Assembly: GCA_016794025.1 (NCBI GenBank)
Contig: JAEUKX010000014.1
Location: 1-64,000, forward strand
From: Rhodospirillales bacterium
Lineage (GTDB): Bacteria > Pseudomonadota > Alphaproteobacteria > CACIAM-22H2
Length of the DNA stretch: 64,000 bases
Reading direction: 5' to 3'
Shown here: piece after piece, positions 16,336-39,426 of the stretch
How positions within the stretch are numbered: the first letter of the stretch is position 1
How the letters are laid out: each line of letters begins with the position of its first letter
Notes under the pieces: generated by a model
What the model was told of the DNA's origin: nothing
Databases searched by the model: none
Seen by the model: only the letters and a program-made list of their open reading frames with translations
Translations under genes and position numbers: made by a program

Positions 16336-16482
16336 GAAATATAGCTTAATTACAATGCATTAGCGTTGTCGTCGTGTGGTATTCCCGCTTCGGCTTCACC
16401 AACAATTAATGTGTCTTTCCTATTTTCCTGACAACCATTGGCATCACTCGCCGACCAGCGCATCGCACGGAAGGGTCCGCAA
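16336..16482. promoter_or_regulatory. Spacer upstream of the Cache-MCP-PilZ gene
   Basis: 147 bases, noticeably AT-rich at 16336-16365 and 16400-16430. It probably holds the chemoreceptor promoter; no clear hexamers were fixed. The ribosome-site-like AAGGG lies about 8 bases before the ATG at 16483. Confidence 0.3.
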
Positions 16483-18456
16483 ATGAAAATCTCGACAAAG
16501 CTTTCGATCATTCCGGCGATCGCCGCGATCGGACTTGTCGTCCTGACGGCCGTCTCGCTTTACGTCGAGTACAGCCAGATGCGCTCAGATGCCGGACGGC
16601 GCAGTGCTGCGATTGTCGACGCGGCCACGACGATCATCGCCTACTACGAAGGACAATCGCGCGCCGGCCGCATGGATGTCGAGACGGCGAAGGCGGCGGC
16701 GCTCACCGCGGTCAAGGCGATGCGCTATGGCGATGGCGACTATGTATGGATTCAGGACTCCGTACCGAACGTCATCATGCATCCGATCCGCCCGGATCTC
16801 GACGGCAAGAACGTCGGAGAGGTCAAGGATCCGAACGGAAATTTCCTGTTCCGCAACTTCGTCGAGACCGTCAAGCGCAGCGGATCGGGGTTCGTCGCCT
16901 ATCTCTGGCCGAAGCCCGGAAAGGAAAAGCCGGTCGAGAAGATCTCCTTCGTGCGCGAGTTCGACGCGTGGGGATGGATCGTCGGATCGGGCGTGTATAT
17001 CGACGACGTCAACGACGAGATCATGAAGGATGCCGGACGATTCCTCGCGATCGTCGTCGTGCTCGGCGGGATCGTCTTTGCGGCGAGTCTCGCGCTCGCC
17101 CGCTCGATATCGAGGCCGCTGGGCGAGATGATCGGCCTCGTGAAGGAGGTCGCCGGCGGCAACCTCGACGTCAAGATCGCCGGTGCCGACCGCAAGGACG
17201 AGATCGGCTCGCTCGGCCAGGCTCTTGGCGTCTTCGTCCAGACCGGCCACGAACAGCGTCGCCTTCAGGCAGCAGCCGATGCCGAGCATGCCTCGCGCGA
17301 GCGCCGCGCAAAGGCGGTCGAGAACGTCACGACGGAATTCAACGCGGCTGTCTCGGGCGTCCTGCAAACCCTTTCGACATCCGCCGAGGAAATGCAGGCA
17401 TCCGCCCGGACGATGACCAACACGGCCGAAACGACCCGCCGCCAGGCCGAGCACGTGACCCAGTCGGCCACGCAGAGCTCGACCAATCTCTCGACTGTCG
17501 CCGGCGCTACGGAGGAGATGCTCGCGACTGTTCGCGAGATCGGTCGACAGGTCGAGGAGGCGACGCGCATCGCCGCGGACGCCGTCGCCGAGACAGGGCG
17601 GACCGACTCGATCGTTGCAAGTCTCATCGAGGCCGCAAACCAGATCGGGGATGTCGTGAAACTGATCAACGACATCGCCGGCCAGACCAATCTGCTGGCG
17701 CTCAACGCGACAATCGAAGCCGCACGTGCGGGCGAGGCCGGCAAGGGCTTCGCCGTCGTCGCTTCGGAAGTGAAGAGCCTCGCAAACCAGACGAGCCGGG
17801 CAACCGAAGAAATCGCCGCAAAGATCAAGGCGGTTCAGGCCGCGACCGGGGAAGCCGGCGATTCTCTGGCCAAGGTTTCGCAGATCATTTCCAGCGTCAG
17901 CCAGATATCCTCGACGATCGCCGCCGCGGTCGAGCAGCAGGGTGCGTCGACCCAGGAAATCGTCCGCAACGTGCAGGACGCCAACAACATGACGAGCGAA
18001 GTGACGCGCGCCATCGGCGACGTGTCGCAGGCCGCCGTCGAAACAGGTGCAGCAGCCAAGGAGGTGCTGACCGCATCGGGCAATCTTGCCCAGCAGGCCG
18101 GCGAGCTGCGCGAAGAGGTCGAGTCGTTCCTGTCGGCGATGCGGACAGCCGGCGAACGGCGCATGTTCGAGCGCAGGCCGTGCGACATCGCGGCCCGCGT
18201 GGAAGCAGGCGGCCGCAGTTTCGAGGGCCGGATCGTCGATATCTCCGGTGCCGGCTGCCGGTTCATCGGGGATGTCGATCTTTTGCCCGGTGCGGCCGTC
18301 CGGATTGCCTTGACGGGATTCGGCGAGCCGCTGGCGGGCCGCCTTGCCCGGCGCGAATCGGGAGAGGCTGGAATCAGTCTTTCCCAAGGCGAGGCCGTCC
18401 AACGCGTGGTCCAGGCCGTCATCGCGACGCAAAAGGGTGCCGCGACAGCGGCCTAG
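16483..18456 (+). CDS. Methyl-accepting chemotaxis protein: single Cache, HAMP, signalling domain, C-terminal PilZ
   Basis: 657 residues. TM1 is at residues 7-28, then a periplasmic sCache sensor ([13 protein letters not shown] to [10 protein letters not shown], about 45-175), TM2 near 185-207 and HAMP. A full MCP signalling hairpin follows ([20 protein letters not shown], then [18 protein letters not shown]). The last 95 residues form a PilZ domain with the c-di-GMP motifs RMFER (RxxxR) and DISGAG (D-x-S-x-x-G). Membrane chemoreceptor whose output is probably modified by cyclic-di-GMP. An upstream in-frame ATG at 16438 has no clear ribosome site. Confidence 0.93.
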
Positions 18457-18785
18457 GCCGTCTCGGCGAGATTTCGCCAATTCGGGTTCGTCCGCGCGAT
18501 CATCTGAATCCTCCACGCATGTGGCCAGGTCTCGATGCGCGCGGCGAGCGAACGCGCCGCCGGGATATCGTCGAGCCGCTCGAGCCAGTAGATCGAGAGC
18601 GGGGCGAGTCCGGCAAGGTTTCCCGTCGCGCCGACTGTGAGCTCGCCCTGTGGATCGGCGCCCGCGATATAGACAAAAAACGCGGTCCCGTGGGTCGGCG
18701 ACAGCAAATTCGCATCGCCCGACGCTCTCTGGCCGGCACGCCCACTTTTCTTTTTCGCGCGACCGTCAATTTGCCGCGTCGACAT
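18453..18785 (-). CDS. Degenerate GIY-YIG-fold protein
   Basis: 110 residues from the ATG at 18785 (another ATG at 18803). The C-terminal half, with [20 protein letters not shown] and [20 protein letters not shown], matches the tail of small UvrC-type GIY-YIG nucleases (usual form AxxREKQIKxWxR, NPxWxDL). The N-terminal strand pair [19 protein letters not shown] stands for the GIY/YIG strands. The following segment with the catalytic Arg/His (RRxxEH) is missing and the catalytic Glu helix lacks Glu at its usual place, so it is probably not a nuclease. Its stop shares CTAG with the chemoreceptor gene. Confidence 0.65.
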
Positions 18786-18870
18786 GCCGGGACCATCCTC
18801 CATTTACGATGGTAAGACGTGTTGCGCACGGCTTGCAATGCCCGAAACCACCGCCATACTCGTCCGCTGC

Positions 18871-20301
18871 ATGCCCCCCACAAGAAATACAATCAGCCGC
18901 GCCGTCGTGTTTGCAGCATTTTTGTATGCTCTGGCCGGGTTGCAACCGGCCGTCGCGGCAACAGACGGACTCCATATCGATGGTGCCGCGATCGGGCCGA
19001 TTTGGCTGGTTCCGTTCGCGGCGATTCTGGCGGGGATCGCACTTGGTCCGCTTGTAGCGCCGCACGTGTGGCACAGGCACTACGGTAAGTATGCCTTTGC
19101 CTGTGCGCTGGCGTTCCTTGTCCCGTGCGCCGCGGCGTTCGGAAGCGCGATCGCGGTCTACGAGTTTATACATACATTCACTGTCGAATATGTGCCGTTC
19201 GTCGTCCTGCTTCTTGCCCTCTACGTGACCGCCGGCGGCATCCGCCTGCGTGGCGCGCTTGGCGGGACGCCCGCGGGAAATACCGGCCTGCTTGCGCTTG
19301 GCACCTTGCTGGCAAGCATCATGGGGACCACAGGTGCCTGCATGCTGCTGATCCAGCCGCTCCTGCGGTCAAACGCCGGGCGCGCCCGGAACGCGCACGT
19401 GTTCGTCTTCTTCATCATTCTCGTCGGAAACGTCGGCGGCGCCCTCACTCCGCTTGGCGATCCGCCGCTTTTCATCGGCTTTCTCGAGGGTGTCGATTTC
19501 TTCTGGGTCACCCGCGCGATGTTGCTGCCGATGCTGTTTCTCGCCATTCCGCTGCTAGCGATATTCTATGCGCTCGACCGGCGCATTGCCGTGAGCGAGC
19601 CTCCGCAGGCACCGGCTCCCTCCGAGCCCTTCGCGATCGAGGGCAAGCGCAACATTGCGCTCCTTGCGGCCGTCGTCGGCGCGGTTCTCGTGTCCGGCAT
19701 TTGGCGGGCAGACTGGACAATCGAGATTTTCCATACGGTCATTCCCGGCGAGAATGTCGTGAGGACGCTCGTACTGCTCGCGGTCGCCGCACTGTCGCTC
19801 GCGATCACGCCGCCGGCAATCCGCGAGGCGAACGGGTTCGACTGGGGTCCGATGGCGGAGGTCGCCAAGCTCTTCATCGGAATTTTCATCACGATCATCC
19901 CGGCGATCGCGATCGTGCGCGCCGGGAGCGATGGCGCGCTTGCGTCGCTCGTTGGATTTCTCGATGCCGGCGGGCATCCGAACGACATGGTCTATTTCTG
20001 GGCGACCGGCGTGCTTTCGGCCTTTCTCGACAACGCGCCCACCTATCTGCTGTTCTTCAATCTTGCAGGCGGCGATGCCGCCACGCTTATGACGACGCTT
20101 GCGCGCACGCTGCTGGCCATATCGGCCGGCGCCGTGTTCATGGGTGCGCTTACGTATATCGGGAACGCCCCGAACTTCATGGTGAAGGCGATGGCCGAGG
20201 CGAAGGGCGTGCGAATGCCGTCCTTCTTCGGCTACATGGGATGGTCGTTGGCCGTCCTGCTCCCGCTGCTCGTCCTGCAAGCGATGGTCTTCTTTACTTG
20301 A
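18871..20301 (+). CDS. Sodium:proton antiporter/CitMHS-type transporter (copy 1)
   Basis: About 476 residues from the ATG at 18871 (an alternative at 18838). An N-terminal cleavable-type signal (VVFAAFLYALAGLQPAVAAT) is followed by about twelve hydrophobic segments. Conserved blocks are HRHYGKYAF, NVGGALTPLGDPPLF, LEGVDFFW, FLDNAPTYLLFFNLAGG and TYIGNAPNFMVKAMAEA. They place it in the ion transporter superfamily (NhaD/CitMHS-like, often named sodium:proton antiporter). Substrate unproven. It is followed 61 bases later by a paralogue of nearly equal length. The start is uncertain because no good ribosome site is visible. Confidence 0.85.
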   Translation: MPPTRNTISRAVVFAAFLYALAGLQPAVAATDGLHIDGAAIGPIWLVPFAAILAGIALGPLVAPHVWHRHYGKYAFACALAFLVPCAAAFGSAIAVYEFIHTFTVEYVPFVVLLLALYVTAGGIRLRGALGGTPAGNTGLLALGTLLASIMGTTGACMLLIQPLLRSNAGRARNAHVFVFFIILVGNVGGALTPLGDPPLFIGFLEGVDFFWVTRAMLLPMLFLAIPLLAIFYALDRRIAVSEPPQAPAPSEPFAIEGKRNIALLAAVVGAVLVSGIWRADWTIEIFHTVIPGENVVRTLVLLAVAALSLAITPPAIREANGFDWGPMAEVAKLFIGIFITIIPAIAIVRAGSDGALASLVGFLDAGGHPNDMVYFWATGVLSAFLDNAPTYLLFFNLAGGDAATLMTTLARTLLAISAGAVFMGALTYIGNAPNFMVKAMAEAKGVRMPSFFGYMGWSLAVLLPLLVLQAMVFFT

Positions 20302-20362
20302 CGCGGGCGCCGGACCCCGGCGAGTGTCGGCGGTACGGAAAGCAAGCAAGAAAAGGCAGGGC

Positions 20363-21790
20363 ATGGAAACGTTGCGTCGCAGATTCGGACTTGTCGCCTT
20401 CGTGCTCGGGGCGGCTGCCCTTGCCAGCCCCGCACATGCGGCCGAAGCTCTCGATGGCGCATCGCTTTCGGCATGGTGGGCGGTTCCGTTCGTCGGCGTC
20501 CTTCTCTCGATCGCCATCCTGCCACTTGCCGCACCCGCGCTCTGGCACCACCACTACGGAAAGATCGCGCTCGGGTGGGCGATTGCCTTCGTCGTCCCCT
20601 TCCTTGCCACGCAGCCGGCCGGGCTTGTGGTCGAGACGATGGCGCATGTCATGCTGGCGGAATACCTCCCGTTCCTGATCCTCATCGGGACACTCTTCAC
20701 GATTGCCGGCGGCGTTCTCGTGCGCGGAAACATCCATGGCTCGCCGGGCATGAATGTCCGCCTGCTCGCGATCGGCACTCTCATCGCCAGCATCACGGGC
20801 ACGACGGGTGCCGCGATGCTGATGATCCGGCCGGTTCTCCGTGCCAACGACGAGCGACGGCACAATGCGCATGTCGTCGTGTTTTTCATCTTCCTCGTCG
20901 CGAATGTCGGCGGCAGCCTCACGCCACTCGGCGATCCGCCGCTCTTCCTCGGCTTCCTCAAGGGTGTCGACTTCTTCTGGCCGACGGTACACATGGCGGC
21001 ACCGATGGTGCTCGTCTGCGCCATCCTGCTCTGCGCGTTCTACGTGCTCGACGTCTGGTTTTACCGGTTCGACACGCATCTGCCACCGCGCCCGGACCCG
21101 ACGCCCGATACGCGCGTGCGTCTGGACGGGCAGATCAACCTGGTCCTGCTCGGTGGAGTCGTGGCGGCAGTCCTCATGTCCGGCGTATGGAAGCCCGGCA
21201 TAGAGATCGTCGTCCTCGGAACGCACATGCCGCTGGAAGGTCTGGCCCGCGATGCGATCCTGCTGGCGCTCGCCGCGATCTCGCTGAAACTCACGCCGGC
21301 CGGCGTACGCGAGGGAAATGACTTCACCTGGGGCCCGATCCTGGAGGTCGCGAAGCTGTTCTTCGGCATCTTCGCGACGATCGTGCCGGTCATCGCGATG
21401 CTGCGGGCAGGCCCCGGAGGCGCATTCGCGTCGGTCGTGGCGCTTGTCACCGGGCCCGACGGAAAGCCGAATGACACCATGTATTTCTGGATGTCCGGCG
21501 GCCTGTCGAGCTTCCTCGACAATGCGCCGACCTATCTGGTGTTCTTCAATCTTGCGAGCGGCGACGCCCAAGAGATGATGGGCCCGCTTGCCTCGACGCT
21601 GCTTGCCATCTCCGCGGGGTCGGTCTTCATGGGGGCGAATACGTATATCGGAAATGCGCCCAACTTCATGGTCAAGTCGATCGCGGAGGCCGGCGGCGTC
21701 AAAATGCCGAGCTTCGTGGGCTACATGGCATGGTCGTGCGCGTTCCTGATCCCCTGCTTCGCGATCGTCACGTTCTTCTTCTTCCGCTAG
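20363..21790 (+). CDS. Sodium:proton antiporter/CitMHS-type transporter (copy 2)
   Basis: 475 residues, paralogue of the preceding gene with the same block order (HHHYGKIAL, NVGGSLTPLGDPPLFLGFL, LKGVDFFW, SFLDNAPTYLVFFNLA, TYIGNAPNFMVKSIAEAGG). It has an N-terminal signal ending near SPAHAAE and about twelve membrane segments. The ATG at 20363 has GGCAGGG upstream. The 3' end overlaps the facing RNHCP gene by 23 bases. The two tandem copies may form a hetero-pair or have diverged in ion or substrate; nothing in the sequence decides. Confidence 0.88.
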   Translation: METLRRRFGLVAFVLGAAALASPAHAAEALDGASLSAWWAVPFVGVLLSIAILPLAAPALWHHHYGKIALGWAIAFVVPFLATQPAGLVVETMAHVMLAEYLPFLILIGTLFTIAGGVLVRGNIHGSPGMNVRLLAIGTLIASITGTTGAAMLMIRPVLRANDERRHNAHVVVFFIFLVANVGGSLTPLGDPPLFLGFLKGVDFFWPTVHMAAPMVLVCAILLCAFYVLDVWFYRFDTHLPPRPDPTPDTRVRLDGQINLVLLGGVVAAVLMSGVWKPGIEIVVLGTHMPLEGLARDAILLALAAISLKLTPAGVREGNDFTWGPILEVAKLFFGIFATIVPVIAMLRAGPGGAFASVVALVTGPDGKPNDTMYFWMSGGLSSFLDNAPTYLVFFNLASGDAQEMMGPLASTLLAISAGSVFMGANTYIGNAPNFMVKSIAEAGGVKMPSFVGYMAWSCAFLIPCFAIVTFFFFR

Positions 21791-35570: not shown

Positions 35571-35974
35571 GATCGACGTCCCGGTGTCTCGAATGGCGCG
35601 ACGGCCAAGGCGATGCCCCGGCCGAAAGAGGCGCGACCATACGGATGGGCCGCAGCCGTGTCAACCCGTCCGGAACTGTCTGAAACAGCATACATTTGAG
35701 TTCATCGGGACGCTGCCGTGTCATGTACACAGACCCAATGCCGCGCACCATCGAGGCCAGTCCAGCCCCCCAGAACCACGTCAATTCCATATGACAGGCC
35801 GCACGGCGGCGTCCAAACACCGCTAAGCGATAGAAATTATTACCAAGTTTTTAACCTTATATTTGTAGCCCGATTTACTTCGGCCTTTGATTTGTAAGCA
35901 TTTTTTGTCGCCAAATTTGATCTAGCGCAGCGCGCTTTCGGATCCTCACAGATAATTTTGCGTCTAAGATCTCG
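35571..35974. other. Non-coding spacer, rpmJ / HD-GYP gene
   Basis: 404 bases. The left half is GC-rich and should carry the rpmJ promoter (minus strand); short overlapping reading frames there show no protein pattern. The right part (35825-35960) is AT-rich and should carry the promoter of the HD-GYP/PAS/MCP genes. No RNA gene, repeat or clear operator was recognised. Confidence 0.4.
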
Positions 35975-37297
35975 ATGCGGATTTCACGCCCTACGTTCGA
36001 CGCGAGAAGCACGACGGAGCCCCCCTTGGAAATTCGCGCCTACCCCGCCCTTTTCGTTCCGCCGTCGCCGCCACCATTGGTCGTTCCGAAGGTCGAACTC
36101 GTCCTGGCTCTCGGGCGCGCCATCGAACTCCTCGACTCCTCGCTCGGAAGACATCAGAAGCGCGTCGCCCTGATCGCGGCGAATCTTGTCGACGGGATCG
36201 GACTTCGGTCGACTGACGTTTCGCGGACCGTGATGGCGGCACTCCTTCACGGAGTCGGCGCGCTCGCACGGCAAGAGCATACGCGAAATCCGGAAGTCGG
36301 CGCGCGGTTTCTGGAGATTTCACCCCTGACGCGCGACCTGTCGCCGATCGTTGCGGCTTCGCGCGACAGCTTCCGCGCGCTGAAAATGCGGCTTGGCCTC
36401 ACCCTCGACAATGCGCTCATCGCCCAGGCACTGCATCTTGCGAGCCGGATCGATGACGCGATCGAGCCGGACGTCTTTGTGCTCGCGCAGGCGGCCCGCC
36501 TGCGCGACGAGGCACTCGCCTTCGCGCGCACGGAGCTCGATCCGCGTATTGCCGACGCCTTCGAGCGCCTGAGCCACACGGATTCGTTCTGGCTCGACGC
36601 GGCCGACTTCGACATCGATGCGCGGGTCCGCCTGAGACTGTCGCACATGTCGTCGGTACAGGCCGATCTGGACGCGCTGCAGGATTTCGGGCGGCTCTAT
36701 TCGGTTCTGGTCGACTCGCGCTCGCCGTACACCGCAACCCATTCCTGGGGCGTTGCGGCCGTCGCCAACTGCCTTGCGGCCTGGAGCGGCTTCGACGGCG
36801 AGACGGTCCAGCAGATCGAGATTGCGGCACAGCTCCACGACATCGGCAAGATCGTCGTGCCGAGCGACATCATCGAGAAGCCTGCGGGCCTTTCGCCGGC
36901 CGAGTTCGGGACCGTCCGGGGGCACGCCTATTTCACGGGATGCCTGCTCGGCACTGTGCCTGGCCTCCATCGAATCGCCGAATGGGCACGCAGCCACCAC
37001 GAGCGGCTCGACGGCACGGGTTATCCGATGGGCCTTGCAGGCGCCCGCGTCACGAGCGAGGCGCGTGTCATCGCCGTCGCCGACCAGTTCGTGGCGCTGA
37101 CCGAGGATCGGCCCTATCGCAAGGGCATATCGGGGCAGCGCGCCCTCGAGATGCTGTCGGAATCGGCGGAGCGCGGCGCGATAGATCGGCAGATCGTCGC
37201 CATCGTCCGCGACCAGTTCGCGACCGTCGACGCCATCCGCCGGCACGCGCAGGGCGTCGAACGGGACGAGATCAAGACCATTCTGCGTGCGGGCTGA
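35975..37297 (+). CDS. HD-GYP-domain protein with a degenerate N-terminal HD domain
   Basis: 440 residues. The C-terminal half has the full HD-GYP signature: THSWGVA (first His, near 252), LHDIGKIVVP near 289, and HHERLDGTGYP near 345. Such domains hydrolyse cyclic-di-GMP. The N-terminal half repeats the HD fold in decayed form (GRHQKRVALIAANLV, then ALLHGVGALA where HDxGK is expected), so it may be regulatory. No signal peptide or membrane segment. It precedes the PAS and MCP genes by 31 bases, suggesting shared transcription and signalling. Confidence 0.9.
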   Translation: MRISRPTFDARSTTEPPLEIRAYPALFVPPSPPPLVVPKVELVLALGRAIELLDSSLGRHQKRVALIAANLVDGIGLRSTDVSRTVMAALLHGVGALARQEHTRNPEVGARFLEISPLTRDLSPIVAASRDSFRALKMRLGLTLDNALIAQALHLASRIDDAIEPDVFVLAQAARLRDEALAFARTELDPRIADAFERLSHTDSFWLDAADFDIDARVRLRLSHMSSVQADLDALQDFGRLYSVLVDSRSPYTATHSWGVAAVANCLAAWSGFDGETVQQIEIAAQLHDIGKIVVPSDIIEKPAGLSPAEFGTVRGHAYFTGCLLGTVPGLHRIAEWARSHHERLDGTGYPMGLAGARVTSEARVIAVADQFVALTEDRPYRKGISGQRALEMLSESAERGAIDRQIVAIVRDQFATVDAIRRHAQGVERDEIKTILRAG

Positions 37298-37328
37298 AAC
37301 ACCGGACGCGACCGAAGGAGAAGGCGCA

Positions 37329-37853
37329 ATGGCGAAATACGACTTCAAGCCCACCGGCAAGGAGCGAACGTTCGGGGAGGACGAGGTCATCGTCAGCAAG
37401 ACCGACACCAAGGGAAAGATCACCTACGGAAACGAGGTGTTCCTGCGGATCGCCGGTTACCCGGAATCCGAGATCGTCGGAGCGCCCCACAGCATCCTCC
37501 GGCATCCGTGGATGCCGCGGTGCGTCTTCAAGCTGCTGTGGAACAAGATCGAGGCCGGCGACGAGATCTTCGCCTACGTCGTCAACATGGCGAACGGCGG
37601 CGACCACTACTGGGTCTTCGCCCACGTCACGCCGACATTCGACGAAGCGGGCAAGATCGTCGGCTATCACTCGAACCGCAGGAAGCCGAAGCCGGAGCAG
37701 ATCCAGGCGGCCTCCGCCCTCTACAAGCAGCTGCTTGACATCGAGGAGCGGGAATCCGACCGGAAGGCCGGCATGGAAAAAGCCTACGAACACCTGAACG
37801 CTCTGCTGAAGTCGAAGGGGATCAGCTATGACGAATTCGTCTTCTCTATCTAA
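37329..37853 (+). CDS. Aer-type PAS-domain protein (free-standing)
   Basis: 174 residues. Residues 20-120 are a PAS domain closest to the FAD-binding PAS of the aerotaxis receptor Aer: [21 protein letters not shown], then [16 protein letters not shown] and [14 protein letters not shown]. The Arg-His of the Aer FAD site is kept; the nearby Asp is Trp here. The C-terminal 50 residues are helical ([20 protein letters not shown]). There is no membrane segment or signalling domain; the next gene supplies those and overlaps by 26 bases. The ribosome site GGAGAAGG is strong. Confidence 0.9.
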
Positions 37854-39426
37854 GGCGCTCGTCGCGTCGGCGCTTTCGGCCGTTGCGGCCGTCGCGACGT
37901 TCGTGTTCGTCGCCACCGGGGCGAATGTCCCCGCGCTTGCGGGTGCCGGCACCAGCCTGGTCCTCTGCCTGCTTGCGCTGTTCTTCCTGCTCGCGGCAAG
38001 GCGCTGCATCCTGGGCATCAGCGCCATCGCGCGCGCGACGGCCAAGGGCGATCTTGAGCCGCGGCTGATCGGCATCCGCGAAGGCGGCGAACTCGGCGAG
38101 ATCTCCAACGCGATCAACTCGCTCATCGACGCGACCGACGCATTCGTGCGCGAGGCGGGCGCGGCGATGGACCATGCCAGACAGGGCAAGTTCTACCGGC
38201 GCGTACTCGAGCGCGGCATGCTGGGCTCGTTCCGGCGGGCGGCGACGATCATCAATACGGCGAATACGTCGATGCAGGAAAAGCTCGTCGACAACCGGAA
38301 GCTGGCGATCGGCTTCCAGGACGAGGTCAGCAACGTCGTCAAGGCCGTCGCGGAGTCGGCCGTTTCGATGCGCTCGAATGCCGAATCGCTCGTCAAGATC
38401 GCGGAAGACACCCAGCAGCGCTCGATAGCCGTCTCCGCCGCTTCCGAACAGGCGACGACGAACGTCCAGACCGTGGCTTCGGCCGCGGAGGAACTGTCCG
38501 CCTCGATCCGGGAAATCTCGGCGCGGGTCGGAGAAGCGGCCGCCATCGCGACCAAGGCGGCCGGCGAGGCAAAGGCCGTCGATACGACCGTGACTTCGCT
38601 CGCGGCCGCGACCGCGCGGATCGGCGAGTTCGCAACGCTCATCCGCAAGATCGCCGAGCAGACGAACCTCCTGGCCCTCAATGCCACGATCGAAGCGGCC
38701 CGCGCCGGCGATGCCGGCAAGGGCTTCGCGGTTGTCGCCTCAGAGGTCAAGAACCTCGCGAACCAGACCGCGAAGGCAACCGAGGACATTTCCAACCAGA
38801 TCGACGCGATCACGCATTCGACCGGAGCCGCGGTCGACGCGATCCGGAGCATCGCCACGACGGTCGCGCAGGTCAATCAGGCGACGACGGCGATTGCCGG
38901 AGCCGTGGAGGAGCAGAATGCCGCGACGCAGGAGATCGCGCGCTCGGTTGCCGAAGCGTCATCGGGCACAAGCATGGTGACATCGAACATCACCGCAGTC
39001 TCTCAGTCGACCGAGAGCGTGCGCGAGTCGGCCCAGACGGTCCTCAAGGCCGCGGAAGGCCTCGACACGCAGTCCGACGACATGCGCAATGCCGTGGCGT
39101 CGTTCCTTGCGAAGACGAACCGCCGGCAGCACCCGCGCTTCGCCGTCGAGCTTGCGGTCAATGGCGCCGATTCGATGGGCAAGGCGCTGACCGGCCGCAC
39201 GGCGAATATCTCGGAAGGCGGTCTGGCGATCCGCACGGCTTTGCAGATGCGCGTGGGCGAAAAGGGCCGGCTGCGGGTCGAAGGCTGCGCCGACGAGCTG
39301 CCATTCGAGATGAAGCACCACGAGGGCAACACGCTCCATATCGAGTTCCTGTTCACCGGGGGAATGCCGGCCGGATTCGGATCGCTGCTCCGGCAGAAGA
39401 CGGCTGGGCTCCAGCCGCTGGACTGA
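37828..39426 (+). CDS. Methyl-accepting chemotaxis protein with N-terminal membrane hairpin and C-terminal PilZ
   Basis: 532 residues. Two membrane segments at about residues 10-30 and 36-58 with almost no periplasmic loop, as in Aer. A HAMP-like region follows ([20 protein letters not shown]), then a signalling hairpin ([20 protein letters not shown], then [18 protein letters not shown]), and a PilZ domain from about residue 428 with RQHPR (RxxxR) and NISEGG (N-x-S-x-x-G). It has no sensor of its own, so the overlapping PAS protein is the obvious sensor partner. Confidence 0.93.

Follow-up and report, generated by a model that had tools for sequence, protein, structure and literature searches.

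Three co-directional genes in the window, a 64,000-nucleotide stretch of a Rhodospirillales genome (contig JAEUKX010000014.1, positions 1 to 64,000), raise the question of how components of cyclic-di-GMP (c-di-GMP) signalling came to be joined to a redox chemoreceptor, and whether the two work together. The first gene encodes an HD-GYP protein, the second a small PAS protein, and the third a chemoreceptor (MCP) ending in a PilZ domain. The original prediction, made from the sequence, was of a redox or oxygen sensor split into two proteins, with a c-di-GMP hydrolase and receptor beside it. As discussed below, the locus probably encodes a CetB/CetA receptor whose CetA has gained a PilZ domain, together with an HD-GYP cyclic-dinucleotide phosphodiesterase.

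The host, which is motile, is taken to belong to the genus Tagaea (Rhodospirillales) and is represented by a draft assembly in 115 contigs, 86.6% complete, with 17 MCP-domain matches. All three reading frames were found at the predicted positions and in the predicted orientation, including the 26-base overlap between the PAS and MCP genes (Table 1). The PAS gene starts at an ATG preceded by GAAGGAG, and a GTG at 37287 represents an upstream extension. Its product shares 66-94% identity with its counterparts in genomes of the same genus, and since the cluster is kept in relatives, the three frames are not chance reading frames. In the window and in two further species (G007 and G008), the locus lies between rpmJ/glcD and a methyltransferase gene.

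Table 1. Features of the cetBA locus and its HD-GYP neighbour, in window coordinates
Feature	Position	Strand	Basis or remark
TTGATCTAGCGCA, 13-bp FNR/FixK-like element, putative regulatory site	35917..35929	+	45 bp upstream of HD-GYP start
Tandem HD/HD-GYP phosphodiesterase (predicted)	35975..37297	+	440 aa; Pfam HD_5 2.9e-34
Degenerate N-terminal HD (LLHGVG)	about 36092-36664	+	motif
Intact HD-GYP	about 36704-37195	+	LHDIGK, HHERLDGTGYP motifs
CetB-type free-standing FAD-PAS protein (FAD predicted)	37329..37853	+	174 aa; Aer PAS 8dik 1.4e-26
cetB/cetA reading-frame overlap, 26 bases	37828..37853	+	sequence
CetA-type chemoreceptor with C-terminal PilZ	37828..39426	+	532 aa; Pfam MCPsignal 7.6e-29, PilZ 2.4e-9
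Membrane hairpin of CetA	about 37849-37998	+	hydropathy
HAMP of CetA	about 38017-38133	+	weak Pfam match
MCP signalling domain of CetA	about 38320-39108	+	Pfam MCPsignal 7.6e-29
Junction where PilZ was appended	39103..39138	+	comparison with CetA termini of relatives
PilZ of CetA	about 39118-39426	+	Pfam PilZ 2.4e-9

The PAS protein is a CetB by its sequence, its structure model and its FAD-contact residues, with FAD binding predicted. It possesses a Pfam PAS_3 domain (3.3e-10), and its best match among solved structures is the PAS domain of E. coli Aer (PDB 8dik). The Arg-His pair that had been assigned to the Aer FAD site is R58-H59, within RHPWMP, which aligns with RHPDMP of E. coli Aer, the position of Aer D60 being occupied by Trp; the Aer contacts His53, Asn85 and Arg115 are also kept. 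The FAD contacts listed for CetB2 of Magnetospirillum gryphiswaldense are H54, N55, R58, F67, W71, N86, V100 and R117 (PMC12442639), and seven of these eight are identical in the window protein under the same numbering, with the exception of N55, which is replaced by Ser. This replacement and the Trp at the position of Aer D60 count against the overall assignment. An AlphaFold model built from 29 sequences (pLDDT 93.9) returned Aer, NifL and MmoS as top Foldseek matches, all of them redox PAS domains, with the Aer PAS domain at rank 1 (TM 0.94 by target). The protein is therefore of the free-standing Aer type of FAD-PAS found in the CetB/CetA family.

The MCP encoded by the overlapping gene begins with two hydrophobic segments (about residues 8-29 and 37-57) joined by a loop of about 8 residues, and possesses no periplasmic domain by hydropathy, in agreement with the Aer-like hairpin foreseen for it. 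A HAMP domain follows at 18.4 bits, below the family cut-off of 25 bits. Membrane segments, this weak HAMP and the lack of a sensory domain of its own are those of a partner MCP encoded next to its PAS protein; a single-polypeptide Aer is not encoded here, as the PAS frame stops at 37853 and the MCP begins at 37828 in a different frame. Judged on these features, the split receptor belongs to the CetB/CetA type of bipartite energy-taxis receptor, already known from Campylobacter and Magnetospirillum. CetA/CetB of Campylobacter jejuni is described as such a receptor (PMC2628428), and in M. gryphiswaldense the cetB and cetA genes of CetBA2 overlap, CetB2 binds FAD, CetB interacts with CetA, and an oxygen-repellent response is reported (PMC12442639). 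As in both of these systems, a small free PAS gene lies just upstream of, and overlaps, a sensorless hairpin MCP; unlike them, the window CetA has a PilZ tail, an HD-GYP gene lies upstream, and residue N55 is Ser.

Pairing of the two genes was surveyed across 174 unique CetB loci, drawn from Alphaproteobacteria together with a small number of other phyla, and at 167 of them the downstream sequence is long enough for this purpose; the class search sample was a draw of 385 genomes, and many genomes are drafts. An MCP gene lies directly downstream of cetB at 155 of the 167 loci and directly upstream at 3 more, so that a PAS gene lacking its MCP is not the rule among relatives. The arrangement is thus common by locus count and belongs to a described family (PMC12442639; PMC2628428), and the split receptor was rejected as a novelty. 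What stood of the original prediction is that a redox-type PAS and an MCP are separate proteins, with a predicted hydrolase and a PilZ domain in one cluster; its newness did not, CetB/CetA and PilZ-bearing Aer both being known. Other architectures were also encountered. In Skermanella stibiiresistens (L144:4971-6899) a CetB-type PAS is fused to an MCP in one frame of 643 amino acids, a fused counterpart of the pair, and another alphaproteobacterium (G091, L066:6945-9728) shows the reversed and duplicated order cetA-cetB-cetB.

On the evidence of the sequences compared, what is unusual in the window is the PilZ domain on CetA and the HD-GYP gene beside cetBA. The PilZ domain, expected at the end of the MCP with RxxxR and NxSxxG, was recovered above the Pfam cut-off and carries both motifs (RRQHPR and NISEGG), the signature of PilZ receptor domains for c-di-GMP; against PDB, phmmer gave no match to it at E<1. 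Only 3 of the 174 loci have PilZ on CetA, those of the window, G007 and G008, all Tagaea. The CetA proteins of four other Tagaea genomes (G002, G003, G004 and G009) end at SFLEKTK, SFLAKTK, SFLEKTR and SFLAKTGAKVD, and the PilZ domain of the window protein begins right there. In the MCP-domain tree the window protein falls inside the CetA clade (support 95/91), while in the PilZ tree its PilZ clusters with that of other Tagaea MCPs (100/98), which indicates that the domain was added at the C-terminus of CetA from a chemoreceptor paralogue. By these comparisons, PilZ is appended exactly at the ancestral CetA terminus and its source is the PilZ clade of other Tagaea MCPs. No record of the plasmid collection covers 80% of CetA-PilZ, and among the matches there that extend as far as the PilZ end are Azospirillum proteins whose annotation gives a Cache domain and which are not CetA. 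A planctomycete CetA (L121:545-2728) has a truncated globin (Bac_globin 3e-25) at its C-terminus, added at the same end as the PilZ of the window protein.

PilZ tails are prevalent on the chemoreceptors of this genus. In 11 Tagaea genomes, 28 of the 30 PilZ loci examined (L153-L182; 35 PilZ domains were found in all) are C-terminal MCP tails, and all four PilZ domains of the window genome are located on MCPs; the c-di-GMP output through PilZ seems to be directed mainly at chemoreceptors in Tagaea. The window itself contains a second such protein (16438-18456, + strand; sCache_2-HAMP-MCP-PilZ), whose gene immediately precedes two CitMHS_2 citrate-transporter genes (18784-20301 and 20324-21790) and which is possibly a citrate receptor with c-di-GMP input. 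A close described counterpart by domains is Aer of Azospirillum brasilense (AZOBR_p280026), which combines a PAS input of the FAD type with a membrane hairpin, HAMP, MCP and C-terminal PilZ, the PilZ being needed for normal aerotaxis (PMC6406031); its PAS and MCP form one polypeptide, whereas in the window they are two proteins with a phosphodiesterase gene adjacent. Tlp1 of A. brasilense and Cbp1 of Azorhizobium likewise carry C-terminal PilZ domains, which bind c-di-GMP via RxxxR (PMC6454048), as is predicted here; unlike the window CetA, Tlp1 has a periplasmic input domain and Cbp1 is a soluble MCP. Extra modules such as PilZ are stated to be present on several of the receptors studied in M. 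gryphiswaldense, the text not saying which ones (PMC12442639), and a PilZ-tailed CetA could conceivably exist in that species. In the open-licence literature neither a CetA with a PilZ tail nor a linkage of HD-GYP to cetBA was found described, which is not proof of absence.

The first gene had been described as carrying an intact HD-GYP. This is accurate for the second domain, which is complete and contains both the HD and the HHExxDGxGYP motifs of HD-GYP phosphodiesterases, but the protein as a whole is a tandem of HD and HD-GYP in which the first HD is degenerate. Its best PDB match is the 3'3'-cGAMP phosphodiesterase of Vibrio cholerae V-cGAP3 (5z7c, 3.3e-32), and the name of this relative makes the substrate uncertain. 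V-cGAP3 and VCA0681 of V. cholerae share the HD-GYP catalytic domain with the window protein, and VCA0681 shares the tandem structure as well; unlike the window protein, neither has a described linkage to CetBA, and substrate preference may differ. The tandem type cannot be considered a generally chemotaxis-linked family, and this candidate was rejected, as an MCP is adjacent at only 2 of 29 loci of the phylum besides the window. In a genome of another alphaproteobacterial family (G057; L288 and L296), tandem HD-GYP genes adjoin a PAS-MCP and, elsewhere, a protoglobin-MCP of the HemAT type.

Linkage of HD-GYP to cetBA recurs in Tagaea. An HD-GYP gene lies within 1 kb of cetBA at 9 of 12 Tagaea loci versus 2 of 162 other loci (Fisher 3.6e-11, with relatedness ignored and the loci not independent), and with 22 HD-GYP domains over the Pfam cut-off in the 11 Tagaea genomes, about 0.045 neighbouring pairs would be expected by chance, versus 9 seen, if loci are treated as independent. 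In the tree these neighbours fall into three subfamilies: the tandem type (window, G007, G001 and G006), a short single type (G002, G003, G009 and G010) and a third type (G005). They are located upstream and co-directional in the window, G007, G010 and G005, downstream and co-directional in G009 and, with one small membrane-protein gene in between, in G002 and G003, and divergent in G001 and G006. About six genomic contexts with differing flanking genes are represented, and all the neighbours keep HHExxDGxGYP. The subfamilies and contexts form a stronger argument than the significance figures and, as read from gene trees and neighbourhoods, argue against a single event; the repeated placing of different HD-GYP versions beside the same receptor suggests that the two work together.

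The two HD-GYP neighbours outside Tagaea are found in Thalassobaculum (L138) and in G363 (L278). The latter had appeared to be a frame-fused PAS-HD-GYP, which was rejected: the reading frame shifts within the C-terminal part of HD-GYP, and the locus is read as two neighbouring genes and a break in frame. Its HD-GYP homologue (L278:4023-5783, - strand) has a broken frame and a degenerate YHEKLSGQGAP, and lies directly upstream of a CetB with no CetA nearby.

Three Tagaea cetBA loci have no HD-GYP neighbour, which is read as loss: those of G008, where a DedA-like gene (named by eye from sequence) occupies the site, of G004, and the second locus of G009, from which 1.1 kb has been cleanly deleted in comparison with G006; HD-GYP is therefore dispensable. 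All three genes with PilZ were found, in the search of other genomes, only in the window and G007, G008 having CetB and CetA-PilZ without HD-GYP. Conversely, HD-GYP is present where CetA has no PilZ, so the link between enzyme and receptor predates the PilZ tail or extends beyond it. The presence of HD-GYP and PilZ together in only two genomes, the non-independence of genomes from one genus, and the position of the tandem type mostly away from MCPs in the phylum count against the overall assignment.

Several accounts of the linkage may be weighed. A bolder and less likely reading than the one given at the outset is that CetBA and HD-GYP in Tagaea are a functional pair rebuilt several times with unrelated enzymes, in which the receptor would set c-di-GMP as well as steer the cell, one lineage having closed the loop by fusing PilZ onto the receptor. 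It is rather doubtful that the locus is an ordinary CetBA, its HD-GYP neighbour a hitchhiker with no functional tie to it and its PilZ tail a fusion particular to the lineage and of minor importance. The loci lacking HD-GYP, its rarity beside cetBA outside Tagaea and the distance of the tandem family from MCPs are as a hitchhiker would have them, whereas three subfamilies on both sides and in both orientations, the excess of pairs over chance, and the fact that in G001, G005 and G006 the neighbour is the sole HD-GYP above the Pfam cut-off are not. For loci without PilZ on CetA two readings of the enzyme remain: it may serve the array via other PilZ receptors or may itself be under the control of the receptor. 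Direct control, in which CetBA or CetB alone binds and regulates HD-GYP so that redox state sets c-di-GMP and chemotaxis is a second output, is unlikely. The persistence of the linkage without PilZ, the CetB adjoining HD-GYP without CetA in G363, and the interaction by two-hybrid of the Pseudomonas aeruginosa MCP PA2573 with the neighbouring HD-GYP variant PA2572 (PMC3411652) all speak for it; the three Tagaea subfamilies, however, have no evident common docking domain, and PA2572, an inactive YN-GYP protein, interacts via a REC domain absent from the Tagaea HD-GYPs, no CetB-type PAS partner being described for that pair. Quite improbable is an enzyme acting on 3'3'-cGAMP or a linear dinucleotide and so not feeding PilZ, as the best PDB relative might imply, given that the tandem VCA0681 is reported to be a functional c-di-GMP phosphodiesterase (PMC4212101) and that the window genome encodes 6 GGDEF and up to 6 EAL proteins.

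Upstream of the HD-GYP gene lies TTGATCTAGCGCA, the only exact copy in the genome, which is identical in G007 and G008 amid poorly alignable upstream DNA; in G008, where HD-GYP is missing, it is located directly upstream of cetB. TTGA-N6-TCAA boxes, FNR/FixK-like palindromes, are found upstream of cetB in G001, G006 and G010. These elements suggest control of the FNR/FixK type at low oxygen.

In the proposed working of the locus, CetB, held at the membrane by CetA, would read the respiratory redox state through FAD and pass the signal to the HAMP and signalling domains of CetA and then to CheA, a route that has been demonstrated for Magnetospirillum CetBA2 as far as the CetB-CetA interaction and a taxis phenotype (PMC12442639). 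Binding of c-di-GMP to the PilZ tail would adjust the gain or threshold of the receptor, as with Tlp1 and the Azospirillum Aer, while HD-GYP would lower c-di-GMP, so that with co-expression the receptor would operate in a motile state of low c-di-GMP. In Tagaea species without PilZ on CetA, the neighbouring HD-GYP may act via the several other PilZ-tailed MCPs of the cell or the general motility pool. The binding of FAD and of c-di-GMP and the specificity of the enzyme are all predicted properties.

Crosstalk between c-di-GMP and chemoreceptor arrays has usually been studied one PilZ receptor at a time. Tagaea offers a natural series in which one redox receptor occurs with HD-GYP alone, with PilZ alone, with both or with neither. 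Such a series would allow a direct test of whether aerotaxis involves a local feedback loop between phosphodiesterase and receptor tail, and the locus described here shows precisely how a c-di-GMP module joined a bipartite receptor.
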